Source of the DNA: Siphonodentalium dalli
Lineage: Eukaryota; Mollusca; Scaphopoda; Gadilida; Siphonodentaliidae
Assembly: GCA_032622095.1 (NCBI GenBank)
Contig: CP136061.1
Span: 22,694,991-22,758,990 of the forward strand
DNA: 64,000 bases
Direction of reading: 5' to 3'
Part shown: one piece after another, positions 4,450-55,839 of the stretch
Numbering within the stretch: position 1 is the stretch's first letter
Layout of the letters: every line of letters starts with the position of its first letter
Translations under genes and position numbers: made by a program
Notes under the pieces: model-generated
Seen by the model: only the letters and a program-made list of their open reading frames with translations
Told to the model about the DNA's origin: nothing
Databases searched by the model: none

Positions 4450-4640
4450 TCACTGTCCGCCTAGTTTCTCGTATGCTTTCGCGATCTGCAGGATAGAAAG
4501 TTCATCGAAGTATTTTCCAATAAACATCATGCCGACTGGCAAACCTCGAACCAATCCGGAATTGATTGTCAATGCTGGATGCCCAGATGCGTTGAATGGT
4601 GCAGTGTTTTCTATCTGGCCCAGGCCTGCGTCCATTTTTT
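4450..4640 (-). CDS. Amidase exon J (last coding exon, stop)
   Basis: The acceptor TTTTGTAG precedes 4640; two bases plus 62 codons and TGA at 4452-4450. It encodes [18 protein letters not shown], then [15 protein letters not shown] and a terminal helix ending KLGGQ, the standard end of amidase-signature proteins (TAPFxxTGHPAxSxPxG). The intron beyond the acceptor starts almost at once with an 18-bp minisatellite. No clear AATAAA was recognised just downstream on the minus strand. Confidence 0.93.
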
Positions 4641-7600
4641 CTACAAAATAATTGTGCAATGGGAAAACAGCAAAATAAATAAGTGTGCAATTCTAAAGCA
4701 AGGACGCAGCAACAGTGTGTGAAGGCATCTCAGTGTGTGAAGGCATCTCAGTATGTGAACGCATCTCAGTGTGAAGGCATCTCGGTGTGTGAAGGCATCT
4801 CAGTGTGTGAAGGCATCTCAGTATGTGAACGCATCTCAGTGTGAAGGCATCTCGGTGTGTGAAGGCATCTCAGTGTGTGAAGGCATCTCAGTGTGTGAAG
4901 GCATCTCAGTGTGTGAAGGCATCTCAGTGTGAAGGCATCTCAGTATGTGAAGGCATCTCGGTGTGTGAAGGCATCTCAGTGTGTGAAGGCATCTCAGTAT
5001 GTGAAGGCATCTCAGTGTGAAGGCATCTCAGTGTGTGAAGGCATCTCAGTGTGAAGGCATCTCAGTATGTGAAGGCATCTCAGTGTGTGAAGGCATCTCA
5101 GTGTGAAGGCATCTCAGTGTGAAGGCATCTCGGTGTGTGAAGGCATCTCAGTGTGTGAAGGCATCTCACCGCTAGGAATGTCAACAGTGTGTGAAAGGCA
5201 TCTCAGTGTGTGAAGGCATCTCACCGCTAGGAATGTTTTACACACAAAACTGGAAAATTTCAAGTATCAATCTGGTACCGATTTGCATGAATAAATATTT
5301 TCTTTGTTTTAAAATTTAGTCTAAATTTCATTAAGGCAAACATTTAAAGGTACTCAATCCGATCATGCGGTCTCCTTATCATCAAGTTATAACAACATTT
5401 CTTCAAAATACGCTTTAGTTATCAGAATCTCTAACAACAAATAAAAATAATGCTAACCGCTGTCAACTATGGTATAAATTTCCCAAAACGTGTTATTAAT
5501 CAACATGTTGTTCAACGAAATACGGCCGTATTATCACTTGAGTATCACGACATTTGGCCGTAATTACGACTTGATTTTAGAGTTATCCACCTCCATCCGT
5601 AATTTTGTTCGAGACCGTCGGTTTGACGACTTTTTTCTGGGCCACAAATAAGGACACATTTCGAGAAATAACAAATTTCAAAAATTTATATCTGATCACT
5701 CTGAGCTTCGATGGGTGGGTTCCTCGATTCAAATCAAATATTTGTACCCCCGAAGCCAAAGAAATAGTAATTTGGGAGCGTCTATTCGGATTATGCATCT
5801 TTAACTTTCACAAGTCAAAATATGATTGAAAAAAAGAAGTTATTTCCGATTTAAAAAGTTCAAATCATGTGCTCTATCATCGATGCAAACAATATGGTAA
5901 TTAAAATTAAAATGAATTTATAACTGGGGTAATAAATATATTTTCATGAATTTATAACTGGAGTCATAAATTTATTCTCATTATCATTTCCATTTTGTTT
6001 GTATCCTGAGTGTCATGAGTGTATTTCATGAGTGTGTTCCATGAGTGTATTCCATGAGTGTATTTCATGAGTGTATTTCATGAGTGTATTTCATGAGTGT
6101 ATTTCATGAGTGTATTTCATGAGTGTATTCCATGAGTGTATTCCATGAGTGTATTTCATGATTGTATTTCATGAGTGTATTTCATGAGTGTATTTCATGA
6201 GTGTATTTCATGAGTGTATTTTATGAGTGTATGTCATGAGTGTATGTCATAAGTGTATTTCATGAGTGTATGTCATGAGTGTATTTCATGAGTGTATTTC
6301 ATGAGTGTATTTCATGAGTGTATTTCATGAGTGTATTTCATGAGTGTATTTCATGAGTGTATTCCATGAGTGTATTCCATGAGTGTATTTCATGAGTGTA
6401 TTTCTTGAGTGTATTTCATGAGTGTATTTCATGAGTATATTTCATGAGTGTATTTCATGAGTATATTTCATGAGTGTATTTCATGAGTGTATTTTATGAG
6501 TGTATTTCATGAGTGTATTTCATGAGTGTATTTCATGAGTGTATTTTTGGCTTAAATTCATTCATTTGTTGTATATATTCTGTTGTTTATAAAAGGAGAT
6601 GGTCCCATAAATGGTCGGATTTAGGGTACAGTACCCCTTTAAGCTCAATCTACCGGAATGTATATATGCTGCTGCCTCCACAGAACAAATATAGGGCGAG
6701 AAACCTATACGTCACCATCAAAGTCTCTAACCCACCAAGCAAATACAGGCGAGAAACATATACGTCTCCATTAAAGTCTCTAACCCACCAAGCAAATACA
6801 GGCGAGAAACATATACGTCTCCATTAAAGTCTCTAACCCACCAAGCAAATACAGGCGAGAAACATATACGTCACCATCCACCGAGCAAATGCAGGGCGAG
6901 AAACCTATACGTCACCATTAAAGTCTCTAACCCACCGAGAAAATACAGGACGAGAAACATATACGTCACCATTAAAGTCTCGACCCCAACACGGTATGTT
7001 GCTTCATCCACAGAGCAAATACAGGGCGAGAAACATATACCTGCCCATTAAAGTCTCTAACATAACACAGTTGTTATTTTAAATTTGTTTAAAACATATA
7101 TAAACATTTGTCTGACGATATAAACTTTACATGTGGAAATTCATAATGCACATTCAAAAATCTGTAATCGTTTAAATCTCATATTTATAACTTAATTTTA
7201 CAAAGAAAACAGTGATGGATTGTGCCCCCGATTTTGAACATCAAACACAACTCAACCATTTAAAAGATGTTCGTGAAATTAACATAATCCCTTTCACTTG
7301 TAAGAACAATATCTCATGCAACAACTATATAGTTCAGCCACTGTACCAGATAACAACTATATAGTTCAGCCACTGTACCAGATAACAACTATATAGTTCA
7401 GCCACTGTACCAGATAACAACTATATAGTTCAGCCACTGTACCAGATAACAACTATATAGTTCAGCCACTGTACCAGATAACAACTATATAGTTCAGCCA
7501 CTGTACCAGATAACAACTATCCGAACGGCTGGAGCGACGGTTTAGGTATTACATTAGTGACGTATGTTCCTGAACGGCTGGAGCGATGGTTTAGGTACTA

Positions 7601-10600
7601 CATTAGTGACGTAGAGCGACGGTTTAGGTATTACATTAGTGACGTCAGTTTCTCGCCAGGATTCTCTCAAATAGTGTATGATTCTGACTAGAAGTTCTTC
7701 ATTGACATGCATCATGCTACAGTTGACTACACAGCTGTATGTGAAATGAAATCTGATTATAATTACTGAAGACTCTGTTTATGATATAGTAGCCAGGTTT
7801 AGATTGCCCTAGGTACCAGCTACGTCCACACTATAATTTTATTTATATATAAATACGTGTGTTGAGGGGGAATCACTCAGTGGTTAGACGGCTATGTTCT
7901 CTTTTCTAAGGTGTCGTTCCACTATCAAGACACCACAAGGGGTCATTGACCGTACACGAAATTTGTTTGCATTTAGACACTATTTTTGATAGGAATGGCT
8001 GCTGAATCTTGAATACATGAAAAAAATCTACCGTAAGGTTGATAATAGTATAAGCCTTATCAACAATTTCAAACAGTTGTCGATCACGGCTTTCTTCTCT
8101 TGAATGTAGCATAACGTGTACGGATGTTTGAATCCCGACGTTCCACAAGTCACATCTAAACCTAGCTAATAACATGTAAACTGCAAGACAGAGTTATGTC
8201 CCCCAAACCACTACCATCACATGCTGGCGTCGTTTGTTTTGTGTTTAATATGAGAATCCATGCTCTCCACGTGTAACGCGTTTCATTGTTAATCACTTTT
8301 CTGTCTAATTTCTGACAAATCTATAGTTGATTCAAGCTTAATTTGATTTAACCCTTTGAGTGCCAGGTCCGATTTTTGTATCAACCCATATACCCTGTGC
8401 CAATGCATTCTCTTATATATGCGAGTCGACCATAGGTCGCCTCGCATATATAAGAGAATGCATTGGCCTAACATTTTTTAGTTTGTTATTTTTTACAATA
8501 TTTTATAATTTTTTACAATTTTAATAATTTATTCTTATATTCTTTAACAGACTTATTTTGTAGGTTTAGGGCCGATGAGGTCGGCCCCTGGCACTCAAAG
8601 GGTTAAACATATTGTGAGGCCATCTGGATGGATAACACAGTTTCCCCAAAGCGGAATTTAGATATGTTATACTGAAGACTCTCCTGCGTATTTTTACATT
8701 AAAATAGCTTTCTGACCAATTTCTTCTGGGTTAACCCATCTTTGCGTACCACAACCATACTATCAAATTGTTTCTCTGTGACCTTTGACCCATGTGACCT
8801 ATAAGGCAAAATTGTGTTAGCTTCATGCCCAATCGCGATACAATTAAATTTTCCATAATTTTGATATATGACATGGCCGCATGCTCGAAGCATGCGTCGT
8901 GTTGGTGCGTGTTTTACCCTATACCATAAACAGAATGCACCAAAAACTCATATGGGACTGCCAGAAACGATGTCAGTTTTAATATTTTGCGCATATATTT
9001 CATGGAGGATTTTTGATATGTGGTGTGAAAAAGGTCCGGCACACCATGAACATCATTTCAATTATGTACAAATATGGTATAGGTTAGGCCATATTTCTCG
9101 TATTTTGACTGGACAGTATATAATGGTAAGCAGGCGGACTATTTTGCGATACTCTATCGGACAATTTCCAACTAATTTGATCTTATCCGGAAAATTTCCA
9201 ATTGAATGTGAACAGCTTAGTTTCTAACAATAATGCTGAATGAAATATAAGAAACACAAAAGTATCTAATAACAACTTGAAAAAAGCTTATGCGATAACT
9301 GCACGACAGTGCACGTGATCTGGTCGACCAGCGTAACGAGGGGACATAACTCTGCCTTGCGAGGTGGGGGGGGCAGAACTCTGCCTTGCAGTTTTAATAG
9401 CATGATCCATTCCTACCTTGTACTGACGCTCCCTCTTTTGGTAGTTCCGTTGCAACCCCTGTCATTGTTGGCATGACTATAGCATCATAATCTTTTAGCA
9501 CGTCTTCATAAGCTTGTTTTAGTCTCAACACCAGATTATGTCCCTTGTTGTAGAACTTGTTTTGGTAATGTTCACTCATGTACTCACTGAGTACCATGAG
9601 CATGCGTGTGGTGATGGAATAGTCATATGGTCTGAGTGCTGCTCCGCGAGTGGCCGCTTCTGACATGGACCCACAATGGTATCCACGCCAATTAAAGCCA
9701 CCAGCTGAAATGACGACCGATATTTTAGTTTAACCCTTTCAGTGCCAGAGGCCGATCTCATCGGCCCTAATTTACGGTCTGTAATAACGGCCCTAAAAAA
9801 ACAAAACAAAAATTCTTCAGATTGTTTTTTTTTTTTTTTGCTTGAATTTTTTTAGGTATACTTAAGCATACTATAGCGAATTTAAAAACAAACTGGATAA
9901 AACCTTAGGCGCATGTTATAACTCTAGTATTCATAGTAATAATTTCGATGCCCATGAAAAACGTAAGATTCCCTGGCAAAATAAGTCTGGCACTGAAAGA
10001 ATTAAAGAAGATAAGAAAAAATTATTAAAATTGTAAAAAATAATAACAAATGATGAAAAATTGTTAGGCCATTGCATTCTCTTATATATGCGAGGCGACC
10101 TATGGTCGACTTGCATATATAAGAGAATGCATTGGCACGGGGTATATGGGTTGATACAAAAATCAGACCTGGCACTGAAAGGGTTAAAGATGGATTATCT
10201 CTTCCTAAATACATTATATTTAGTTTCCTGTGAATAAATATATATGAGTCGAAAACACCCGTCCGGAAACGTTTCTATCAATTAATATTTATTATTATCG
10301 ATATTTTCTGATATAATGCAATAATCAGTTTGGACATTTTTTCATTACTAATTTTTTAACATACCGTGATGACCCGTTCAGAAGATCTCAGATAGAAATA
10401 GAGTTCCCCCACCTTCTATGGTCCACGATCCGTAAAATGTTCTAAATTGATCATATGTGTTTTACCAGAAAATTCGAAATAAAATCAATATTAATTGATA
10501 GAAGCGTTTCCGGACAGGGGTATTCGATTCATATTTATTATTTTATACCATGAAACTATATAAAACTTGATATATGAAGAGAAAGACCATCTTTTAACAC

Positions 10601-13600
10601 ATTTATTCTCTATCAACGATTAAACATGTAAATCACAATATATGTACATCCAACATAGTACATATAAATGGGAATAGAAATTGACAGTAAGCTTAAAGGC
10701 GTATTGGTGCCATCTCCTATATATTTGTATATAGAATTATATGAATTTAAGATATTTTATGAGGAATTATAGAAGCCTAGATTCACAGAGACGACGTTCT
10801 TACTGGCACACCAGACATACCCAACTTCAACTTAAACTTTATTTTAGTCTTTTAACATGGGTACATAGAGACCGTTTATAATCATAACATATTTACAATG
10901 ATAAATGAATCACTTAATATATATCCTTATTTGGAAGAACCGTATAAGAAAGCCACCGAAGGCACAAACCCTGTCCGCCAACGGTAATGTTCAGGAACTA
11001 TAACCATCAGATAGTGCCGGGTCTCAATCTCTGTCCTCCGCCGCTTTCCATGAACGGTGAATCCATGGTGCAATCACTGCACAGAATCGACCCCCATCAA
11101 CATATGATATATCCACATCGTATTAATGTGCATGCACTTAGGTTGTTATAAGAAGCAGCCCTTTTGGATTCTTCTACGACTCATTGGGACCAGTGGCATA
11201 TCAGAACTATGTTTATGGCGCCATCAAGGTTGTCAAAAACTAACTCTTTTAGAGTTGTTATCTGACAATTCAGTCTAATTATTCCCGGCCACACGCGTAC
11301 ACATCGTACATTATAGTGGGCATCTTACTGTCCTATTTGTGAGCACTGGAATATATTGTCAGTATGCTATTAACATGGTATCTTGGTAAACTATCGGCTG
11401 TACCCCACTTGACCCCGGGGAGCAGTAAATGGTTACTGAGTAGGCTCATTGGGGTAATAATTTGAGCGCTTTGGGCATCATGGGTTAGGCGCTTTACACA
11501 AACTGTACATTATTATTATTATTTATTATCTTGAATCACTATTCCCCCCCCCCCCCCCGATAACCATTTCGTATGGAATAATGTTGTGGCCAACCTAGAA
11601 TGGCGGAGAATATGCAACCTGCCAAACGAGAAAACCACCGAAGTGACAAAACATTGTGGCAATATATGTGTGTGTCTAGACATTTTGTCGCTTTTGGCGG
11701 ATTCCTCGTTTGGCGGGTTCCGTTTCCCCGCCCATTCTATGTTGGCTCTAACAGTAGTCCATAATTTCGTAAATCGCCAGGCAACTGTTGTAAAGGAAAC
11801 AAAACATATTGCTTGATGTGTGATACGATGGGACATACCGCTTCCCTAATGTCATACATTCTGCAAATTCTTGTACTATAATGACGTTATTGCTTGATGT
11901 GTGATAAGATTAGACATACCGTTTCCCTTTGTCATACATTATGTAAATCATTGCACTATAATGGCGTTATTGCTTGATGTGTGATAAGATTAGACATACC
12001 GTTTCCCTTTGTCATACACTCAGTAAATCATTGTACTATAATGGCGTTATTGCTTGATGTGTGATCAGATTAGACATACCGTTTCCCTTTGTCATACACT
12101 CTGTAAATCAATGTACTATAATGGCGTTATTGCTTGATGTGTGATCAGATTAGACATACCGTTTCCCTTTGTCATACACTCAGTAAATCATTGTACTATA
12201 TGGCGTTATTGCTTGATGTGTGATAATATTAGACATACCGTTTCCCTTTGTCATACATTCTGTAAATGATTGTACTATAATGGCGTTATTGCTTGATGTG
12301 TGATAAGATTAGACATACCGTTTCCCTTTGTCATACACTCAGTAAAACATTGTACTATAATGGCGTTATTGCTTGATGTGTGATAAGATTAGACATACCG
12401 TTTCCCTTTGTCATACACTCTGTAAATCATTGTACTATAAATGGCGTTATTGCTTGATGTGTCATAAGATTAGACATACCGTTTCCCTTTGTCATACACT
12501 CTGTAAATCATTGTACTATAACGCGTTATTGCTTGATGTGTGATACGATGGGACATACCGTTTCCCTTTGTCGTACACTCTGTAAATTATTGTACTATAA
12601 AGGCGTTATTACTTGATGTGTGATAAATTAGACATACCGTTTCCCTTTGTCGTACACTATGTAAATGCTTGTACTATAACGGCGTTATTGCTTGATGTGT
12701 GATACAATTAGACATACCGTTACCCTTTGTCATACACTCTGTAAATCATTGTACTATAATGGCGTTATTGCTTGATGTTTGATAATGTTTGATAAGGTGG
12801 GACATACCGTTTCCCTTTGTCATACACTCTGTAAATTCTTGTACTATAACGGCGTTCCATATCGGCATCCCTGAAAGCAGACGACAGATTCGACACAAGC
12901 TCCATGCAGAGTTCAGTCCCCTTCGATGCAGAACTTAGCTCCATGCAGAGTTCAGTCCCCTGCTATGCATGACTTAACGCTGCCAGCACGTACGCAGAAT
13001 GAGAGGAAATCACTAATTATTTTATTTGAGACTTGTATATAGGTTACAATTCATTCTGCATCATTTGAAAAATGTCAAGATCAAGCCAGAATAAATTGTA
13101 ACTGACAGAACACTTCAATAAAAAATGTTAGATTTAATTACGAAAAAATACGAATGCCTGCAGCGGTCAGACATAGCGTAGCGAGGGGACTGAACTCTGC
13201 AGCTTCGATTCTACAATGTGTTTTATAATTATAAATAGATCTTAATTTCTTAAATGTATATATATCGCATTGGTAACGCAGATGCCGTGGCTCCGTCGTT
13301 AAGCTGCATTACACTGGTTAGAGGATAAAAAGTTCAGAAGATATCAATCGAATTTTCTAACTTCAAACTGTCAGACGCACTCGAATCTTCAAATTAAATA
13401 TAGGTAACTTGGAAATGGCATCAAGACATGCCAATTCGAAATATTTCCGACCGAGCGGTAGGAATGTGTTTTATTGAGGTATGAAACCCATGGCAGTGAC
13501 AGTAACTGTTGGAAATTATTGCCGAATTAACATTCATGATTTTGTGTGGAGTTCAATCAAGTGCTATATGAATAATAATTAATAAATTATTACCATCCGA

Positions 13601-16600
13601 ATGCATTGGAATTGACACTTCATCTACCACCATTCCTAAACTTTTTAATTTTTGGCAGGCAGCTTTAACACACTCGCTAACTTCTGGCTTTGATTGTTTG
13701 AACCCCTCTGTGCACATTGCAATCTTCTTTCCTTTCATATCGACATCAAGCTGTGGAAACAGAATCATAAGCACAACATGCAAGTGTTTCTATCACGATG
13801 GGGAAATCATGTGATTTCGATGTTGGTGAGTACCACGCAGTAAAATGGCCGAAGCTAGTGCAAACGCACAAAAACATAATGAAGTGACACAAAATATTGC
13901 ATTTTAACTGTTTCGAGCATATGATAGTTTATTGTTAAACAAGTTGATACTATATTTATTCAGAAATACTCAGTCGGAGGTTCGTGGAATACACCAGTCC
14001 ATACATCTAGGACAATCCTTCGTCTGACAATTTTGGTCAGAATGTTAGAGGAAACAACTGTGAGTTTGGACACAAATGTAACACACGGATATTCACATTT
14101 TCGCACCAGTTTCTATATACATCGATCCATTTTAGTCAGTGGATAAATGAGTTGACTATTTTCTTACTTGAGAATGTTTTTATATTTCAAAAGGTTATAC
14201 ATGTCGCAATTTCTAGAACATGACAGAGACATCACTACCAAATTCTCAAATAAGTGTGCATGTGGTGTCCTACGAAATTTCTACCCAGGATAGTGTGGGG
14301 AAGTGTATATATACAGAAGCAGAAACAAAGAGGCAGAATGTGGATCTCCGTGGTTAGCGTGTCGGATCTGCTGTCAAAACATCGAGATGGTCTATTGTAT
14401 TGGGGAAATTATCGCTTTGATAACCTTTGGCGAATGTGGTATATTTTAGGTCATCTTGAAAACTTTTGTACCTATTAGACTGAAATTGTGTTTATCGTAT
14501 TTTAAGATGTGCAGCAGGACATGGTCAAAATTTTGGCGCAATCGGACATAAGGGTGATATATTTTAAACGCACCAATGGCGTCATAGAGTTAGACATAGA
14601 TTTAGGCTTGTATATACAGGAATAAGGGATTGCTCGTCACAAACATGACATGCAGGAAATTAATATAATAGTCATCACTATTGATTCACTAACGATATAA
14701 AGAAAGCCGGCAAACGACGCGCGGAGTTTGTCCGGAATTTGGCTTTGGTCTTTTAAATTTTGTAATGACGGACGCCGCTGAAAACACATTCGTCTTCGTC
14801 TTGTATCAGTGAAAATATCGTCTTGATAACCTTAGGGAAACGCTTTATGTCTCAGGTCGTCTTGAATATACCGATTGGCCTGAAATTTTGCGTGTCGCAT
14901 ATTAAGATGAATATGCTGCAGGACATGGTCAAAATGTGAGTGCAATCGGTCATGAGGGCGATGCATTTTTTTAATAAAAAAATATTCCTGCAAATGGCTG
15001 CGAGAAAATAAATAAAAAAAAAAATTCATTGCATATTTTATTTTTATTTTTTTTGGCAGCCATTTGCAGGACTATTTCTTATATCTGGTAAAGGACCAAA
15101 GCAACATCAATATTATTTAACCACGTTTTCAATAATCTGGCAGACATAAATACTCAGTACTGATTCACCTTTTCAGAACGTATGTAGTTTTATGGTGATT
15201 ATTCTTTTAAAAAAGTTCTGCAAATGGCTGCCAAAACAAAACTAAAATATGCCATGAAAAATGTTTTATTTTCTCGCAGACAGTCATGGTTTCTGATGGT
15301 AGGCTGAGCGCATACCCTAACTGTGTTCACAGTCTAGAAAAATGCAGTGTGTTTTTTGGAAAATATTTCCTATCAAACTGTCTATCGCCCTACATGAAAA
15401 CATAGTTGCTTTTATTTTTTTTATCTGTCATATAGTGAGAATACATATGAGTTGTTATAATACTATAGCATACATTGGTTATAAATGATGTTTTTTCCCT
15501 TCAGGTTGATTGCTTGAAGTTGAGATTTGTTTTAATTCACGAATGTGGCGCCTTCTTAAATAAATGGATAGGAAATTATATATTAAGCAAAATATTTGAT
15601 GGTTTAAAAGGACTTTGAACATAATTTATTTAATTTTAGTTATTTTTTTCAATAACAAAAATTATGTTATTTTGTATTTATAGGTCTAGTTTAGATGTTT
15701 TTATATAGGAAGCCTGCCATTTATACGAGAATACTCATATTATAACCAACGAGAGACCATGTGATCCTTACCAACTGTGTATATTCAGGTACTTTTATGC
15801 CTGGACTCTGTCTTGGGTCCAAACCGCCGTCGTAGCCAGCAATGGTCTGAATAAAGAAAACAAATATCTTGTCATATACCAATCCAAAATCTACCATGTA
15901 ATTAAATCAGCTGTACGTGAGAATACTGCTGAACACTCGATTGAATGGCCTGTTTTTTAAGGATGCCTTGTAGCCGAGGTCGTGGCCCATGGTGATTATG
16001 GTGGATGTCACAATCGCAATCTACATTAGATGATGAGTTTGTGTGTTCTAATCCTGATAAGGGCGAAAATCGAGACTGATTTTCAAGCTTGATTTGAGTT
16101 GAGGGACATATCGATGTACCATTTCGGTCGCAATATTACGCAATATTACGCAGAATTTTTTTATTTTTTCAGGAACATATGCACAACCTACCAAGTCTCA
16201 TACTTTCTTGTGTAAACGTCCTCATCGTGTAGTCACCAAAATGTACTTTGATAATTGCCCATATGCAAAGATGGGACATGGGGACATTTCCAACGGCACC
16301 CCCATCCCATTGAACATTGGACCGGGTTTAAACCCAAGTTTCACAAAAATCGATTGGTATTCCCACCCTTTGGGTTGGACAACTGTTTGAAATTTCCAAC
16401 CTGACAACCCACTAAGGTCAGCTAAGGTTGGAAAATTTCAAATAACAATTTCCGATCACATTATACAATATGCTACTGTTGGTCTAAAAACTAAACAATT
16501 ATATTAAAAAACCCTATAGGGAGCCCCATACAGGTGTCAGCTTGTATAGCTGAGTGTCGTCTGCTCATGTCTGTGAGAGGCTCCATAAGGGTAATTAGAT

Positions 16601-19600
16601 TGTATAAAATCACGATATGTTATTTTTGTTTACATTTATTAGCAGTTATAAAAATAATATAAAATTTGTTAGGCCAATGCATTCTCTTATATATGCGAGG
16701 CGACCTATGGTCGACTCGCATATATAAGAGAATGCATTGGCACAGGGTATTTGTACAATGTAGTTTATATGTAACTCTTGTTGCAGTATTGGTTGGAAAA
16801 TCAAGAGGTGTGAACATTTTGACAAAAGTTGTGGGGGGTAGACACAATCCCAATCCCAAACAGCCAGCTGCCCCCCATGGCACTGGACCGCTTACATGTA
16901 ATGGATAGAGTGCCCTCGTCTGAGTGTATAACTACATCATTTACATTGGGGAAACTACCCTTCTGATGAGTGTGCCCTTGTCCATAATGAATCGTATCGA
17001 AATAAGTTTAATAACTAATTCGTGGCCATATTGGATCCATCCAGCCCTGTTCCGTGGTTTTAGTGCTGCAGGTCAAAGTTCTTGAGTAGCATTTCCATAT
17101 GTGGAGCTTATTAATATTCATGACTTCCATATATGGAAATGTTACTCCAGAACTTTGACCTGTAGCACTAAAACCACCGAACAGGGCTGGGTGGATCCAA
17201 TATGGCCGCGTCTCAGTGACAAGGAGTATACATGTAGATTTCCAATCGTGTTTAAACGAGATCACTGATATATTGGATCCATCCACCCCCGTTCCGCTCA
17301 TTCAGTGCTACATGTAAACGTTCTGAAGGAGCTTTTGAATATTCGTTAATTTGATATATTGAATATTCAAAGCTCTTGATCCACGGAATGGGGGTTGGGT
17401 GGCTCCAATACTCTCAGTGAACTTGCTTATTACATTATTTAATTAGTAGAGAACTTTTGCGGCAATTCACAATTGTTTTGCACCTTTAAGAAAGAATAAA
17501 GTATATTACCTCCAACAACAAGGCACAGTCATGCACCGTCCGAGCCATCGGCCCTGTGAAGTCTAGCGTGATGCATATGGGGTAGATGCCTGTGTAAGGC
17601 ACGAGGCCCCAGGTGGGCTTCAGACCTACGATTCCGCAGTACGATGAAGGAATCCTAATAGATCCTCCCTGGTCGCCTCCTATCGCCATGTCGATTTCAC
17701 CCAACTGCACCTGTCATAGGAATTTTCATTGATATAACAAGATAGTCAATGACTGTGGGTCACTCACCAGACTGTAAAGACTTAGAAGACTGGGACTATG
17801 ATGACTACCGGTTGAACAGTCAGTACTTGACAAAATCAATTAAGACAAGTAGTTCTAAACATGGATATAACTGGAGGTTCTCGGATGAGCAGGGCTCTTC
17901 ACCTTGAACTTTCTAATTGCACACCACTGACAAATCTCCAACATCTTACTGTTTAAAGAAGACAACCATCCCGGTACCACAGTACTAAGTTCACAAAAAT
18001 CCTTTTCACACCCCTCTTAGGTTGAAATTTACACAACCTGACACCCCATTAAGTTATAATTTGTGGCCAATTCTGTCCAACAGTTTAACCTGAAGTGGGA
18101 ACATATGGACTGTTGATTTAAAAACATACATGTCGGAAAATCAAACCAAACTATGATAACAATTCTAACCTATTTTGGTGTGAACATCTAATCTACAACC
18201 ATGGTTTTTTTTAGCCGTTCTTCAATAACTGTGTTAACTGCCTTACTAATTGGTAAACACAGATCAGAACAACGAAAAATATACTGTAATTCCATGTGTT
18301 TCCTGGTGTTTTCAGTATCTAACAACAATATTAATTAAGCATTGTGTAGGTACACTATGTCACAAATTGCCCTAGACCCAATTATAGCCTTAATATATCG
18401 AGTGTGTTGTGTCTGACAGAGAACACTGGCCAGTGTAAATAGTGGTAAACAGGTCAGGGGTTCCACAATTATATGTGCATGGTCAAAGAACTCTTTAGTC
18501 TTATCCAACGGGATGGGGTGGGGAGGGGAATTGTTTTTTGGTTATGTATACACATAGATATATGGTTATTATACTGCCCGATATTAGTCGGCGGTATATA
18601 GTTGACGTCTCGAGTCGTCTGTCCGTACAAACATTTTGAATTTTAACTCAAGAGTCAGTTGTCATATTTGATGCCCTATGACATGGTGACGGACCAGAAA
18701 TGGGGGACGAATATGCATAATATCGCGGGTTGTGACCAATGCCTACCAGAGTTATGGGCCCTGTTCGACTTTATGAAATTCAGTCCATACAAAGTTTTTG
18801 CAATATAAGTTAAGTGTCGGTTGTCAAATTTTGATGTGGTTTGGTATGGTGATAGACCAGAATGAAGAATTGAATGTCATTTCTCAATGCATCTGAATGC
18901 ATCACATTATTTCAGTTCATCTATTTGTAAGTGATAACAGTATACAATTAGTATTTTAGTTTCGTCTTGTTGAGCAGTAAAGCTCCCAGATGTATTAAGT
19001 TCGGAAATTCAATGAGAATAGCGTCACCTTCATTTGGGATTGTCTGAGCAGTAAACCATCATAACCAATTCATTTTTATTTGGATAATTGTTGCAAATTA
19101 ACATTACTTGCAATCATTCAAGATGAGAAATAACCAGAAGGAATGAATTTGACTACATGCCAGAACAAGACAGTATTTCAGACATTAGAAATTTATGAGA
19201 TACCCTTTTCAATTTAATGTTATGCAACAATCAGGTTAATGATATCTACTAGTAGTCATCATTGAGTATTCACCATGTAGTATCCAATTTGTAATAGAGT
19301 TTTTTTGTTTTATTACTTTTATTCAGATAATACAACTGGGTAATATATTAATTTTGTTACTAAATATTTCTTCCGTTGATCATAAGTTTCCTGAACGTTA
19401 ATACGGTGGTCCACTGTGAAGTGGTCCGGGATACTGTGAAATCCAGAATGTTGCTAAATCTGAGGCTAAAGAGTCACTTTAGCTGCCTATATAGCCCTAT
19501 ACCAACAAGCATGGTACTAACATGCTTACAAACAACATTACATGGTCAGTACTTGTAAATTGTTTGAAAAAAACCCATTTTGGAAAAAAATTACAATCAC

Positions 19601-28600: not shown

Positions 28601-31600
28601 ATCAAAGGTATACATAGAAGAGTTCTCAAACACACCGGGACCTTGTTTAAAAACTTTTCTCTATGAAGTGCCACCGAAACAGCGATCTGATTCAGATGCA
28701 GAGTATACGCACATTTTTCCGTTACACGGGCATGACATAAAGGACAGACGGAAAGTTCGTAAAGACGCACAATCAGCTTGCGGCAAGTTTTCTTCAGCAC
28801 TGGTTGAAAATCTCAAAAGCAGGTTCACTGACAATGAGGACGCTGAAGTGTTGACAGGTTTGACAACAATTTTCGATCCTGCATCCAAACCTAGGCAGAT
28901 AGCAAATGCAATTCCTAAACTACTAACATTCAGACAACGGACTGATAAGGATATTACACTGGAAGATCTTACATCAAGTATAGAAACATTTCGAAGTATG
29001 TGTAAGGGTTAAGTATGTGTAAGGGTTAAGTATGTGTAAGGGTTAAGTGTGTGTAAGGGTTAAGTATGTGTAAGGGTTAAGTATGTGTAAGGGTTAAGTG
29101 TGTGTAAGGGTTAAGAAAGATATGAACGACATCGATGATCTTGTTCAGTTTGACAAAGAAAGGATACATATCCTACAATTTTAGACTTTGCAGAAACACT
29201 ATATTGTGTACCAGTGTCGACTGTGGAATGTGAGAGGGCCTTCTCGTACCAAAATTTAATCAAAGATAAACGGCAAAACAGACTTTATGTTCCACATTTA
29301 AACTTGTTAATGAAAATTGCAATTGCATGAAGGCCCTCCAATGTTAGATTTTAATTTTGGTAAATCATTTAATAAATGGGCAGATGTAAAATCTCGCAGA
29401 ATTTTTAATGTTTGATAATTAATATTGTTCTCATTGTTGTTATTTTATCTACCAGAACCTGTTATATTATATTAGAATAAATATTTGAGTTAATTAGCTT
29501 GTGTTGTTCTTTGAATATATTTAAATCAAAGTGGCTCCAAAAATATGGGTTGAAAAAACTGTGGCTCAAGTAATTGAAAAGTGGCTAAAAAAAATCACAA
29601 GTGGCTAAGGTGGTGGCTGAAGAAATTTTTTGGGCCAGTGTAAACACTGGACTGACATACCGCTACAGCGCTGCCACCACTGGAACCTCCTGCTGTGTGT
29701 GACGTGTTGTGTGGATTGAGAACAGCCGCTTTGGAGTTAGTGAAGCTGGACGCGCTGATACACATATCTTCACACGCGGTCTTCCCGATAATTCTTCCAC
29801 CTGCAGTCAGTAAAATGGTTCATTCTCGGATTGTTTAATTTCCCAACATATTTAGAGATAGAATGTATCTCCTATATACGTTTTATAAAATTTCTGGGGT
29901 AAACAAAATATAAATATGAATCGAAGACGCTTGTCCTGAAACGCTTCTATCAATTAATATTCAGTCGAACTCAGATAGATATAGAGTTATCCCGCTTTCT
30001 ACGCTCCGTGTGTCTCCATGAGCCAAAGAAATTAATATCCCAAATTTATTGTATGTATTATACCAGAAAATTCGAAATAAAATCATTATTAAAGACATAT
30101 TATGGGCTTGTTCGGGTGCGTAGAACTGACAAGTTAGTACTCAGGTGCTATGTCAACTGTGGGAATGTATCATTTTACTTTCATCGCCAAAAAACTCAAA
30201 GAAATCGACCGTACCACTCCATAGAAATCATCATCTGAACTAAATATTTACATCTCGATTCGGGACGCAACAATCATTTTCGCCACCAAGAGTCATTGCA
30301 TTTAATTAATATAGAAGAATGACGATTTGTGATGTAAATTTGATTAATATTCGTAAAAATAACTACCTTAACCCTTTCAGTGCCAGGGGCCGATCTCATC
30401 GGCCCTAATTCACGGTCTGTAAAATCGGCCCTAAAAAAATTAAAAAATAAATTATTTTTTTTAGATTTGTTTGGTTGAATTTTTTTTAGGTATGCTTAAG
30501 CATGCTATAGCGAATTTAAAAACAAACTGGATAAAACCTTAGGGGCATGTTATAACTAAGAACTATCACCAAGTATTCATAGTAATAATTTTGATGCCCA
30601 TGAAAAACGTAAGATTCCCTGGCACTAAACCTGCAAAATACTGAAAGAGCTAAAGAATATAATTTTGTTTTATTAAAATTGTAAAAAATTGTAAAAAATA
30701 ATAACAAATGATGAAAAACTGTTAGGCCAATGCATTCTCTTATATATGCGAGGCGATCTGTGGTCGACTCGCATATATAAGAGAATGCATTGGCACAGGG
30801 TATATGGGTTGATACAAAAATCGGACCTGGCACTCAAAGGGTTAAGCAAGATTATTCTCCATTTCTATTTTTCAACCAACCGGAGTGTATCACATTACTT
30901 TAATTGATAGAAGCGTTTCCGTACATACACAACTTGTTATATATGAAGTGATAGACCGTCTTTAAATATGTTCCTACTAGAGTTTTTGACAACGGTGACT
31001 TCCGTTACATACATTTATATTCCTTATTTTGTATCTCGGTCAAACAAAGAGTATTGTAGGGTGTCCAGAAGACACCACTCCGAAACACTGGAACACCCAG
31101 TCGATCACGCATGTCTTACTTGCGCCGTGTACCATCGTTGCTATAGTATAGCGCTTTCTATTGACAAACTCTGTGACGCGTTTAGCGTGTCACCTGACAC
31201 GATTGGACACGTTAGGTGTGTCGCATGATACGTTTTCTGTGTCACATGACATATTTTCTGTGTGATTTGACGCGCTTTCTGTGCACAACTTTTCATGTCG
31301 TTTGACGGTAAAGTTTTTCAGTGTAAGGTATGTGATCGATCATTCTCACCTGCGTCGAGTATCCTCGTTACTATGGTAGCATCTATCTCGGGTGTGTACC
31401 CTTCTAGAATCTTCGATCCGTTCATCATTGGCACCCCAGCTACGGGTACATTATCCTTGATCCCGAGTTTTTTACCTTCCAGTTTACCCGTCTCCGCACC
31501 TTTTACGTCACACATCCAGTACCTGTTGTATTCATATAGGAAAGTTGCAGTTTTGTCGTTAAGCACCTCCCAAATAGTGGCAAATACCAAACTCTTCCAC

Positions 31601-31767: not shown

Positions 31768-34700
31768 TCTTTCTTAGCAACCTGATGCCAATTAGACAAT
31801 ATGGGCGCTGCCAAAATTAGAGTTTTCGCCTATATTCGCCTGTCTTGGTAAACCACACACAATCCTCAGAGAACTATCGCCCGGACATCCAACAGTGTAT
31901 TTATATAGGTGCATCGCTCGTCTAATAGAGACCTTTCGCAAACTAAGTATTATGGTCACGGATTGAATACATTGTCCTAGTAAGGTGGACGCCATTACAA
32001 CTTACATACGATGGTTAACCCTTTACCCAACATAACGGCCCTGTGCCAATGCATTCTCTTATATATGCGAGTCGACCATAGGTCGCCTCTCATATATAAG
32101 AGAATGCATTGGCTTAACACATATTAAAAATGATCAAATTGTCGAAGAATGTAGAAAATATTATAAGAAAAAATGTTAAAAAACTTTTTTAGGCCAATGC
32201 ATTCTCTTATATATGCGCGGCGACCTATGGTCGACTCGCATATATAAGAGAATGCATTGGCACAGGGCATAACTGTAACCATCACAATGTGGTCAATGAA
32301 CCGGTTCCAAAGATATCCATATTTGTATGGTGTTATTGAGACAGACCGAAGATATTTTAGGCTGTTGAAGCTTTATTTGGGCGTTTTTGGCCGGTTTGTT
32401 GGGTAAAGGGTTAATTGGTGAGACGGCATATATACGCTCCACTATATTTTATGGAAAAAAGTAATGTGTGTCTGTTTCAGATCCCACGTTCCTGTACAAC
32501 ACACGGATAATGTTAGAGCGTCCCCAAGCAAGACCGGTGACACATCCACCCTTGACACATTTGTACAGTACATAATTAAATAGTGTGGGGTATATTTCGT
32601 CTGACATGAGAACCCCCCGTGCGTAAAGATCGAATTGTTTTGACACTGGCAGGATATTATCCATATCCGTAATCGTAATCATGATTTTGTGAAAGGTCTC
32701 TATTATGATAGTATCAGTCGCGTCACAAACTGGACGCTCATCATATTGAGATATTTGAATACGCTGTGTTCTTATATATAGATCCAGACCAGATATATTA
32801 ATGGCTTCGGTGGCAACATCAACAAAACGGTTTGTCCCATTTCTGTGCTTTTGTGTTAGTTTTGTCCTTGTAGCATGTCTGTTAAAAATAATAGTGGGTG
32901 TACCAGACTGAATGTGTCCGTCTGCCCATCTGTCCGTCTATCTGTAATTCGTCCGCACAGATATATATCGATATGCATGGAGGTTAGCCATCGGGAGTGC
33001 TTTTAAAAGAGTTCCAACGTGACGCTGTTTGCATTTTCCGTTATATATATAGAGTAATCATTCTTTGTTTATTTATTTAGAAAACTTCAGCAATGAGCCA
33101 TAGGGTCTCAATGAAATGTTTAATGGAGTGGCCATCACATGTGTTTTAATGTAGTGACCATCACAAGTGTGTTAATGGAGTGGCCATCGCAAGTGTTTTA
33201 ATGGAGTGGCCATCACATGTGTTTAATTGAGAATGAATGAATAATTTATTGGATAAGGCATGTAGACATATACATCTAGCATTTATAAAATACAAGGTGA
33301 ACAATAGAAATACAAATACAGTGTACACACAGAATCCGGGCGGTGATGTGACCTAATGGCCGTCTTCCCATTATCGCCCAGGCAAAAATTAAAGGCATCA
33401 GTTTGTTTCTGTTCAGCAGCTCTCGTCAATATACTTGTGGTGTGTTCAAATGAAGTACGATTTAGAAAGGCTAATTTATAAGGTATACCATCTCAATCGC
33501 AAGTCATGTCTATATCTTTATAAGTTAAACTAAATATTGAGAGTGAAACAGTGTGATGTACAATTCATATCAGTTCAGGGGAGAGTCATGCATGCGTTGT
33601 TGTACCTTCTCAACAAGTTACATTTCTAAATGTTTGCATATATATACATAATGTTGCAAAGATAAACTAAAATATGTACGTATATACTGGCGTGAATACA
33701 AGGTACATGTGAGAGAGCTAGATTCGTAGACAATATTCAGGGAAGGGGTTGTGTATTTTATAGCGCAGTTTAACAGGGAAATTCGCGATAGTACGTTATA
33801 GTAATGTGTATTAATAAAATAGTGTGATAATAATAAAATAATAAAATCTATAAATGTGACATAAGAGGAATTTATGCATTCAAATGTATATTATGACACA
33901 TAATTCGTGGGGGTTTGTGGTGTAATAGTACGAACACTTAATTTGTGTCTATTAAGTTTTATTATTTATTGATTTGTGCAGTCAGGGATTTTCACAGTTG
34001 ACTTTACTCTACTTTTATAGTTCTCAAGATAACCATCTGCTATAAGTCGTTTAAACGTAACTCTTGGACCAGAATATGTTATGGGGCGGCAACGAATTCA
34101 GGCAGTTGGGATTTGGTGAAGTGGCAATAGCTCAGTATAGTTGGTCGTATGTGTCTTATGTGCAAGATCACTTGGCGAGAAGCCCTGCCAGTCCAGAAGA
34201 GTATCTAAAAAGTGAGGCAGTAGTCCATTTTTTCCAGTCGTATGCGATAAGGGATGCTTTCAGTGAGTATAGGTTACGAACTTTAAATATTTTACTTCGT
34301 TTAAATAGTGGTTCCGTGTGGGAATTAAATTTGGCATTATTTATCAGCCCTTTTTCTGTAATTTGAATAATTTTTCAATATCTGCACATGTCGAGACACC
34401 CCAAACTTCAATTCCATAGGATAGTTTGCTATGTATAAGAGAGTCATATATGCGTTCTAATCCGTTTCTTGGAAGAAAGCTTTTTTTATATTTAGACAAT
34501 GTATAGTTTTACGTCGGAGATAGTCAGTGTGATACTTGAATTCCAGGTTTTCGTCTAAGTGAATACCGAGAAATTTGAAAGATGAATCGCCCACCAAAGC
34601 ACTTACATGTTGGATACATTGCTCATTTAATTTCAGTTTGTTACGAACAAGATAGCTCCTGTCAGATTTGGCGTTAAATATCATATACATCGACTTTGCA

Positions 34701-40700: not shown

Positions 40701-43700
40701 GGTATCCCATAGGAAATGTTCAGATAATAAGTTTAACCCGTTCTATACTAAAGCATCATTGAAGAGTAGTTATCCCATAGTAAATGTTCACATAATAAGT
40801 TTAACCCTTCCTATACTAAAGCATCATTGATGAGTAGGTATCCCATAGGAAATGTTCAGATAATAAGTTTAACCCTTTCTATACTAAAGCATCATTGATG
40901 AGTAGTTAACCGATAGGAAATGTTCAGATAATAAGTTTAATCCTTTCTATACTAAAGCATCATTGATGAGTAGTTACCCCATAGGAAATGTCAGATAATA
41001 AGTTTAACCCTTTCTATACTAAAGCATCATTGATGAGTAGTTAACCGATAGGAAATGTTCAGATAATAAGTTTAACCCTTTCTATACTAAAGCATCATTG
41101 ATGAGTAGTTATCCCACAGGAAATGTTCAGATAATAAGTTTAACCCGTTCTATACTAAAGCATCATTGATGAGTAGTTATCCTATAGTGTTCAGATAATA
41201 AGTTTAACCTTTCTATACTAAAGCATCATTGATGAGTAGTTATCCTATAGTGTTCAGATAATAAGTTTAACCTTTCTATACTAAAGCATCATTGATGAGT
41301 AGTTATCCCACAGGAAATGTTCAGATAATACGTTTAACCCGTTCTATACTAAAGCATCATTGATGAGTAGTTATCCCTTAGGAAATGTTCAGATAATCAG
41401 TTCAGCAAGACCATGTTTGCTGAACTTGTTATCTGAACATTTCCCTCAATAAATAGTATGTACACTTTTAACGGAGAATCCATGCAGGGGTTAAATGTGG
41501 ATATCTGAAATTGCTCAGTGCTGTCATTCGTTCAGTACGTGGATTTCGTTACAAGGGATGTTTGAAGCTGTCTTCAGTAAGTTGTTTTCAGTAAGTTGTT
41601 TTCAGTAAGTTGTTTTCAGTAAGTTGTTTTCTTTACAAGTGATCTTTGAGCTAATAAATATAAAAACAAAACAAAACAAAAAAACATTATACGCCAAAAC
41701 CAGGTTCAGTGAAATTTGGTGATAAAACTAATCGGTAGTTTACCAACAGCTAGCAGCACCACACCACAAGCTGGTTTACGTCAGGGGAAACTTGGACTAA
41801 CTCATCTGCTATATGTATATAAGAAGTGGAAGAGATGTGGGTTAATAATTTGCAACAACTTCGTTGTAGCATATATATGACTTTATTGCTATAAATTTAG
41901 CATTTTCTAAACAAACACAGTCGCCGTTCATGCACCGATAATTCAGAATGCCGCGAGTTAATTTAAGTATGTAATGATTGTATTATATTACATGTCTTGC
42001 ACCTGTCAAAAGTTGTATCGAAAAGTGAATGGAGAAATAATTTAATTCATGAATTTTATATACGTCCGCATTGCAGTGGGCTGAAAACCAAGGGTCCTGA
42101 CTATTTACGACATCCGCGACATGTCTGTGGGTTGAATGGACATATTAAAATGACATGATATATACGCTAAAATGACATTGTTTGGTGTTTATAAGCATAT
42201 ACATGTACTGTATATGGTTTCTGACCGTTTCAAATTGGACAGCGGTTCACAAAGCTAACAATGACGTAAATTATATTCCGTAGCTGTAGTGGTATGGAAC
42301 GTTATTTAGTTTGTCCTTTCTGAGTTGATAAACAAACCAACCATATCCGATATCCCATGGAGTTCCCTTATTTCGTTTCAAAACTACTCATTTAAAAATA
42401 GTTCGTTTCATAAGTTAGTTTCAAATTTTTCACAACAGTGGTATACCGACTTTTCTTTCACATACACACTCTTTCTCGCTATCCCTCTACCTTTCTCTGT
42501 CTCGTATTCATCGTGAGTTTACCCCCTCTCCTTATTACCTTCCTAAGTTTATCCTTTCATCACATATTGTAAATTCGTCTGTATCATTACATAATATACC
42601 ATCATTTCTTAAACATATTATTTCTCGAACTCGGCCACTTGCCATTCACCGCGCTTTCTTTATTTCTACAATCTTTCTACTTGCCCGAGGAGATAGCTCA
42701 ACAAAAGCGGATATATGCTTGCTGCTAGATCCTCTTCCCCTTTTCTGTTCTACTCATGTTTTCATCATCAAAATGTTTATCATAATTGTAATATTAATAT
42801 TAACCCTTTACCCAACAAACCGGCCAAAACCGGCCAAATAAAGCTTCAACAGCCTAAAATATCTTCGGTCAGTCTCAATAGAACCATACAAATATGGATA
42901 TCATTGGAACCGGCTCCTTGACCACATTGTGATAGTTACAGTTATGCCCTGTGCCAATGCATTCTCTTATATATGCGAGTCGACCATAGGTCGCCTCGCA
43001 TATATAAGAGAATGCATTGGCCTAAAAAAAAACTTTTTTTAACACTTTTTACCATTTTTTCTTACATTCTTTAACAATTTTATAATTTGTAATGTGTTAA
43101 GCCAATGCATTCTCTTATATATGCGAGGCGACCTATGGTCGACTCGCATATATAAGAGAATGCATTGGCACAGGGCCCTTCTGTTGGGTAAAGGGTTAAT
43201 TGGGACGAATAAATATTGTTTAAAGGACCACTTAATTTTCGAGTCACCAATTATTTTTTTTATAGTGCTTTGATAAATTGATATACGGTTTTAATAACAA
43301 TATATGTCATAAATTACGATTAAAATACTATAATTCGTCACCATTGAATCGTCTGTGTCTCAGAAGATGCCCAAAGAGAAATATAAAAACAGCTGAAATC
43401 ATAGAAAGATTGCCCCCGTTATGGCTCCCAGAATGCAACAGAATAAAACAAAATGTATTTTCAATGGAAGGGGAATAACTATCTTTACGATATAGAGTTT
43501 TCTCCCATCCATTAAAAATAATGCACTTGCACTACAAAACAGATGAAACTTAAGCACAAAAACACGTCGGTCGCTCAACAAAAACAACATGTTCACAGTT
43601 TATTGCACCGGATAAGTTGATAATACAATGTTTTGAAGCTTCCTCTTTCAAATGGTATGTAATATGGCATATATTGTATATATGTGATCTGGGAATTCGA

Positions 43701-54181: not shown

Positions 54182-55839
54182 TAGTAGGGCGGCTCCGTGA
54201 CAAAATATAGGTGAATTGTGCATTTTATGGTAAAATCACCAAACTTTGTGTATGACATCCTGGCATGATACTTTGTTGATTTGGATATCATGCCAAGCTA
54301 GGGTGGGTCCACGGTTGCCATGGTAACCTCTGATAAAAAGTGGTCGCTAAAACGCCGACAAATTGCATTGAAAGGGCGTGGAATGATTCGTCTCCACATC
54401 TTGTGACAATTTTTAGTGGGCAATAATGACTAAACGAGTCTGTATTGAATATGTGGACATGTTTTGAGTTATCATGGTATAAATATGACTGGTGGTAAAA
54501 AATGACTATGTTGAATATGTCGAACCTACATGAATTCAATTTGGTAACAATTATGAGAATATAATAACTACTATTACATGCACACCCAAAAACCGTTCCA
54601 GCTGTTTCTTATCTCAATTTCTTCTCATGGACATCAATTAGAGTGCATGTCGACGCAAACTTATATCCACCGGGTTCATATATTTATATATTTTTCACAA
54701 CACTCTCGATGTGGCGACTTAGTCATAATTTTCATTTGATTCTAGGAAAAATAATTTCAGAAAACAACGTTTATAACAATTGTAGACCCCAGAGGCATAC
54801 TCAAACCACAACTGCATTGCAGGATGTCCGGGACAAGATAGACAGTAAACTACGCATATAAACAATTCTCATGCAGACGGCATAAAAGTATCAGATCCGG
54901 TGGCTCGGACATGTCACGGTATAATCGCATTTTATTCGCGACCGACCAGGATAAACATTAATAAAATTGTTATGTCACGAAGTTTGGTAAAACATTTATG
55001 ATCTAACATGGCTGATATGTTTTATATCGCCGATGTATGCGTGGGTCTCGATCAAGTTATCAGATTGCAGGAATTTAAAGCTACACCTTTATACGCATTA
55101 GTGTATACATGTAATGCACAAAAGCCTACGTTTGAAACATTTATCAAGTGAAAGGACAATAGTCGAGAAACGTTCGAAGTTTAAAATTGAAGTCTATCAC
55201 GTTTTGACGTCAGTCTTATAAATATTTGACTGTCCACATAACCTGTGATTATTCACATAAAAATCGAGTATGATTATTGATTATCCACACTGATACAGAT
55301 AAAATAATCAACTATGATTTATACCATCGAATTTATACCAGTTATAACTCAACGACTACCCCAGGTATCTAAGTAGCCCGTGTGGGAAAAACCCAGGTCC
55401 GCTATACCTGAGTCATGTCCGGATGCTGATGGGTCCAGTTATGCCCCAGCATCCATATTAATATATGCCTAGAATCCAAATGTATAGGCAAACCCCGCCC
55501 CCACCCCAAACCCTGACTCTAACAACTTTTTCTCTTGCAAAATAAGCAATAAAACAATAAGAGGATTTTGTGTCATGTGTGTGCTGGGTGGGGAGATATC
55601 CTGGCATGGACATCTTCCCCCACCCCAAAGTGTCGTGAATATATAAAGCAAAACAAAAAACAATAAAACTATAAGAGAAGAAAATTTTCTCACATAAAAA
55701 ACTTTAAATAATAATAAAAAAAAATTCAGAGTCAAACGATATCAAAATTAGTGAACATTTTGTTTATGCATACATGGGGCAAGATATCCAGGGGGGGGGA
55801 CATATCCTAGGATATACATTTAATAGTTATTCAGACAAC

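Follow-up and report, generated by a model that had tools for sequence, protein, structure and literature searches.

A 64,000-nucleotide stretch of contig CP136061.1 of the scaphopod Siphonodentalium dalli (here called the window) carries on its minus strand an amidase gene in which the 3' end of one coding exon, exon H, has been amplified together with its 5' splice site into an array of 80-bp units in the following intron. The array is present in all three copies of the gene that we found on this contig, with a different number of units in each. We think that it is probably an exon-derived minisatellite older than the gene copies, in which the first donor, d0, is the productive one and the decoy donors behind it are mostly ignored, and that the array is tolerated rather than useful.

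Exon H and the array built from its edge

Tandem Repeats Finder (TRF) places the array at 11807-12856 on the minus strand, with a period of 80, 13.0 copies, 91% matches and a score of 1656, which is far beyond chance. Its first unit overlaps the 3' end of coding exon H (12808-12870) and the donor of that exon. The unit is made up of the 3'-terminal 48 nt of exon H, followed by the donor ACG/GTATGT (the slash marks the splice junction) and about 31 intron bases. Thirteen GTATGTC donors stand behind exon-like sequence in the window. One is the real 5' splice site d0 (ACG/GTATGTC, 12801-12807, first intron base 12807), and the other 12 are decoys, which occupy 11832-12717 (first bases 12717, 12637, 12558, 12479, 12398, 12318, 12238, 12159, 12079, 11999, 11919 and 11838). 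An earlier reading of the same letters (the original prediction) had described a 13-unit, 80-bp minisatellite derived from the exon edge, its donor and the start of the intron, with twelve decoy donors downstream of the real one, and all of this is borne out.

The first 14 bases of exon H lie outside the repeat, and the matches of the other units start at its base 15. The searches covered the 2.2-Gb genome, and their match counts are lower bounds. With exon H as the query, only three of the 41 listed matches reach the first 14 bases, one per gene copy, which argues that the array came from the exon and not the reverse, among the matches listed. With the repeat unit as the query, all of the at least 41 listed matches fall at three places, each a copy of the amidase gene. 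This speaks against a dispersed satellite that landed in the intron, the unit being seen only in the three gene copies among the matches listed. None of the seven other exons has a second copy in the window. The last unit and the remnant behind it (11807-11919) have AAGAATTT and GTATGTCCCA in common with the exon unit, as if they were close to the founding duplicate.

The gene around the array was modelled from splice sites and reading frames as eight exons (B, C, D, E, G, H, I and K), whose spliced product is a stop-free protein of 428 residues. This protein scores 298.4 bits against Pfam Amidase (PF01425; curated cut-off 27) and aligns to PDB 3a1k over residues 9-427 with 400 bits. PDB 3a1i and 3a1k are its closest solved relatives by score, and we take both to be the Rhodococcus amidase, a bacterial enzyme and as such without spliceosomal introns. 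By reading, GGDQGGSIR in exon D and a second catalytic-motif stretch are present inside the part aligned to 3a1k; we take the motifs in the encoded protein to be the Lys-cisSer-Ser catalytic motifs of the amidase signature family. Amidases of uncultured Binatota/Binatia bacteria share 53-54% identity with the protein in the best segment, over residues 1-424.

Exon H itself is 63 nt long (12870-12808), with an acceptor ending in GCTTTCAG and a donor beginning with GTATGTCCC, and by reading it runs from phase 1 to phase 1, so that skipping it would drop 21 residues in frame. It supplies 21 amidase residues, the first of which, a G, is shared with exon G. The upstream neighbour, exon G (13594-13750, minus strand like all exons of the gene, 157 nt), ends in phase 1, and the downstream neighbour, exon I (9417-9704, 288 nt), starts in phase 1. 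We compared the encoded protein with the best 80 of at least 566 confirmed relatives, all of them bacterial, using gap costs that favour gapless alignment. The 28 residues from three before exon H to a few past it align without a gap in all 80, and both junctions are included in this span. The original prediction had called exon H an amidase exon with matching phases and had named relatives without a counterpart of its peptide as the result that would count against it; every one of the 80 bacterial relatives has a gapless counterpart. Judged by these alignments, exon H is a genuine amidase exon. Because the relatives align without gaps, the joining of G to H at d0 and on to I gives the ancestral length, and a product that skipped H or contained an added microexon would not fit. 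In the amplified part of exon H the protein reads Q-E where all 80 bacterial relatives have E-G.

The remaining exons are B (31350-31522), the first of this gene model, although the protein start may lie further upstream of the modelled part; C (29661-29800), with a GGSSGGSA motif and a donor that reads GCG/GTATGT; D (17510-17710); E (15772-15846); and K (4450-4640), the last coding exon, which contains the stop codon. A further intronic array, with an 18-bp unit in 29.1 copies, occupies 4713-5223, upstream of exon K, and stops about 70 bp short of it.

Three gene copies and the turnover of the array

The amidase gene was found three times on the contig, each time with the array: in the window, at 1096977-1098380 (copy 2) and at 963287-964054 (copy 3). 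Copies 2 and 3 are 134 kb apart, and the window copy lies about 21.6 Mb away. Exon H is matched at all three places with 100% identity, exons G and I adjoin it in each, and the 428 codons of B-K are open in all three. Synonymous divergence (dS) between copies is 0.014-0.018 and nonsynonymous divergence (dN) 0.005-0.007, with a dN/dS of 0.35-0.41 that comes from just 9, 11 and 12 changes in the three pairs compared. Exon K of copy 2 has an additional base immediately ahead of its stop codon, which extends the reading frame.

The number of units is not the same in these near-identical genes. We counted 13 donors in the window, 18 in copy 2 and 10 in copy 3, which amounts to three real donors and 38 decoys (12, 17 and 9). 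Variation of this sort between recent paralogues is a feature of variable internal tandem repeats. Within an array, units differ from one another by a mean of 8-10%; the window value is inflated, because a 10-bp duplication that follows d0 is misaligned when units d0 and d1 are compared and raises the mean exon-unit divergence of the window to 0.167. The aligned introns of the window copy, on the other hand, differ from those of the two other copies by only about 0.6-2.7% in substitutions, indels aside. The array is thus older than the gene copies.

Of the window's 12 decoy units, nine have an identical partner in copy 2 when gaps are ignored, two have one at 1.2-1.3% and one (d9) at 2.5%. The order of the units is also the same in copy 2, save for d9, whose partner is ambiguous. 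In copy 3, six of the 12 have an identical partner. Copy 2 contains a four-unit block, d2-d5, repeated as d6-d9 with 0-1.3% difference, and exceeds the window copy by one unit of the exon-adjacent type (d1). This duplicated block and the extra d1-type unit indicate that turnover beside the exon has been ongoing since the gene was copied. We picture the following course. A piece that ran from the 3' end of exon H across its 5' splice site into the beginning of the intron would have been tandemly duplicated before the gene was copied, and the array would then have grown and shrunk by single units and by blocks; the turnover is visible in the units, and slippage or unequal exchange may have driven it.

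Copies so similar could also arise from assembly, if uncollapsed haplotypes or the handling of long repeats lay behind the copies or their unit numbers and there were fewer real genes than three. The substitutions between copies are only about 1-3%, two of the copies are just 134 kb apart, and the unit number of long arrays is sensitive to assembly. However, the distance of the window copy on the same contig does not fit this explanation. About 1.2 kb of the H-I intron (window positions of about 10380-11600), present in the window copy and in copy 2, is also missing from copy 3, the array is in every copy with the common unit types in the same order, and unit number would still vary even if the copies were haplotypes. 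We consider an artefact unlikely. Two probes (2200-2900 and 54500-55300) matched interspersed repeats in addition to the surroundings of the other copies, and for this reason they do not fix the ends of the duplicated segment.

Distant amidase paralogues were examined as an outgroup. Of 20 genome matches, those at 247.8 Mb and 52.1 Mb of the same contig were covered, and those at 130.7-130.9 Mb of contig C9 and at 252.4 Mb of the window's contig were left out. The best candidate for a counterpart of exon H there (E 0.016, 30% identity, L014:5437-5496; cut-off 50) was too short and weak and was rejected. One of the paralogue stretches (L013) holds two tandem arrays, and the other (L014) seven TRF rows, including a different 65-bp unit at L014:4460-5237.

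Decoy donors and the choice of d0

All 38 decoys retain the GT, and the further units are donor-competent as far as their letters go. The 9-mer of the real donor, ACGGTATGT, is found at 34 of the 38, with GCGGTATGT at two and ACCGTATGT and GCGGTGTGT at one each. The real donor pairs with U1 at an energy of -5.0 kcal/mol, and so do 36 of the 38 decoys and the donor of exon C; the other two decoys have -1.4 and -4.4. When exon H is extended to a decoy, a stop follows in 38/38 cases, at codon 35 or 41, so that use of a decoy would always be unproductive, a separate microexon excepted. The exon-like part of the unit alone contains an amidase-frame stop in 33 of the 38 decoys (10 of 12 in the window) and an amidase-frame TGA in 24 (8 of 12 in the window), with the frame counted back from each donor, for which reason the 81-nt last unit reads shifted. 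Most decoys had indeed been expected to carry such a stop. Since d0 alone yields an enzyme of conserved length by alignment, we regard it as the productive donor.

The exception concerns the units in which an AG stands exactly 21 nt before the donor, which could be spliced in as 21-nt in-frame microexons and would give proteins with extra copies of ECMTKGN. Such an AG occurs in 19 of the 38 decoys (6 of 12 in the window). The microexon had been part of the original prediction and holds as a possibility, while its motif has to be corrected: it reads TTTACAG-AGTGTATGACAAAG, and it is with this motif that the run from AG to donor comes to 21 nt. By reading, the phases are 1 to 1, and the consensus unit has a branch-point-like CTAAT 49 nt before the AG. 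The pyrimidine content of the candidate acceptors, 8-9 of 17, overlaps that of the gene's own (7-14 of 17). Their longest pyrimidine run, however, is 3, compared to 4-8 in the gene's eight acceptors, both AG columns are variable, and neither the 80 bacterial relatives nor PDB 3a1i has an insertion at the site. We consider it highly improbable that the units are used in this way.

We then asked whether the decoy donors have been kept by selection. Among 25 distinct units, GTATGT has one variable column of 6, compared to 37/80 in the whole unit. Random sets of six columns are as conserved as GTATGT in 6.7% of draws by cells (P 0.07) and 13.5% by variable columns (P 0.13), GT alone reaches 28% (P 0.28), and 9 of 72 nine-column windows, the donor window among them, are at least as conserved as the donor. 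Among these 25, the donor columns thus show no significant excess of conservation over the other columns of the unit. By this measure the comparison shows neither upkeep nor removal of the decoys, and homogenisation of the array could be enough to keep them donor-like.

These results bear on a reading in which decoys are frequently used or their use is regulated, either as an off-switch through a poison extension of the exon or as a landing zone for the U1 small nuclear ribonucleoprotein (snRNP) that scales with unit number, with an amount of enzyme that differs by copy. That every extension is poisoned, that nearly all decoys match the U1 energy of the real donor and that the hexamer has so few variable columns would all suit it. 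On the other side, the above-background conservation expected of a poison exon or extension was not found in the donor columns, and the unit number shifts between gene copies. We regard regulated use as rather unlikely. A more specific version makes the ladder a splicing attenuator tuned by copy number, in which each unit is one more U1 site that diverts transcripts and 9, 12 and 17 decoys give graded amounts of enzyme, in effect a fast-changing expression dial; this we hold to be less likely still.

The predicted openness of d0 in the folded RNA ranks 1/13, 5/18 and 1/10 among the donors of the three arrays with a window of 200, and 3/13, 3/18 and 1/10 with a window of 80. This leans weakly towards d0. 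The ranks are not independent trials because the copies are nearly identical, and we keep the idea that folding hides the decoys as a weak hint only. Retrocopies that might reveal the splice junctions were not found: there were 14 genome matches, none spanning two exons. Rfam gave no matches at the gathering threshold.

Returning to the reading in which d0 is used and the decoys are mostly ignored, we suggest that d0 may win for three reasons. The 3' splice site of exon H is probably better than those of the units, d0 is the first donor to be transcribed, and pairing across an exon of 63 nt should be quick. When a decoy is nevertheless used, the early stop would presumably send the messenger RNA to nonsense-mediated decay, and the cost of this leak may be low enough for the array to persist. 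Several points weigh against this reading. The use of d0 is deduced from the protein, and the gapless placement of exon H comes from exclusively bacterial relatives aligned at gap costs that favour it. Nothing in the donor sequence favours d0, as the shared 9-mers and U1 energies make plain. In classical experiments with duplicated donors, the one nearest the 3' splice site is often preferred, and at this locus such a preference would select a poison site. Finally, the decoy donors are undecayed, which need not be so in a harmful array; homogenisation would account for it, and the conservation of the donor columns is non-significant.

How the splicing machinery chooses among identical 5' splice sites has long been asked, for the most part with artificial substrates in which a donor is duplicated. 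The amidase genes provide a natural series in one genome: behind the real donor stand 9, 12 or 17 copies, each with 48 nt of exon as well, and a small number of coding differences (9 to 12 per pair) could serve to distinguish the transcripts of the three genes. Should nearly all splicing go through d0, the choice could not be put down to donor strength or to the 48 nt of exon next to the donor, and would have to depend on position or on the upstream acceptor. Exon H also sits beside its own broken copies. Most decoy units contain an amidase-frame stop, so the gene would be at risk if the array were to convert the exon.

Neighbouring repeats and known systems

The window holds other repeats as well. 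A near-palindromic element occurs eight times (8402-8464, 10071-10133, 16676-16738, 30729-30791, 32048-32110, 32196-32258, 42956-43018 and 43104-43166), with 33-nt arms and a 3-nt loop in the two copies measured; its arms give 16 matches at up to 3 mismatches, compared to 0.00 expected by chance, and it looks like a short fold-back mobile element. An array at 7320-7520 has a 32-bp unit in 6.3 copies with 100% matches, which suggests a very recent expansion.

Pseudo-5' splice sites that trap U1 snRNP are known from the Drosophila P element. Sites of the kind found there and in oestrogen receptor alpha are single or few and are regulated by proteins. The amidase decoys resemble them as non-productive donors beside a real one, whereas the amidase array has 9-17 decoys in tandem and no known regulator. 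For oestrogen receptor alpha, a pseudo-5' splice site that traps U1 snRNP has been described (PMC6002489).

The amidase unit is 80 bp long and includes 48 nt of coding exon. The repeat unit of the human interferon gene IFI6 (6-16, G1P3) is much shorter. In this gene too, a minisatellite is reported to supply multiple splice donors (Turri, Cuin and Porter 1995, NAR 23:1854), and two downstream repeat units are described as donor sites that give rise to three mRNA species (PMC4526556). The alternative donors of IFI6 are thus used and make isoforms, whereas the amidase array is known from its sequence and all of its decoy extensions run into a stop. In human genes within segmental duplications, minisatellites vary in unit number between recent paralogues, as described by De Grassi and Ciccarelli 2009 (PMC2812944). 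Like the amidase array, some of these lie at an exon-intron boundary and are linked there to cryptic splice sites. Their units average 30 bp in four copies, and they are described as lengthening exons and introns or forming novel introns, whereas the amidase arrays have 10-18 units of 80 bp, are intronic and leave the exon intact.

No other intronic array of exon-plus-donor units was met among the papers listed, judged by title and abstract opening, which is no proof of absence. By its sequence features, the amidase array is real and unusual, yet it belongs to a known kind, the exon-edge minisatellite with multiple donors. It joins the multi-donor feature of IFI6 to the variation in unit number seen between paralogues, and what it has of its own is the size of the unit, the share of exon in it and the number of decoys.
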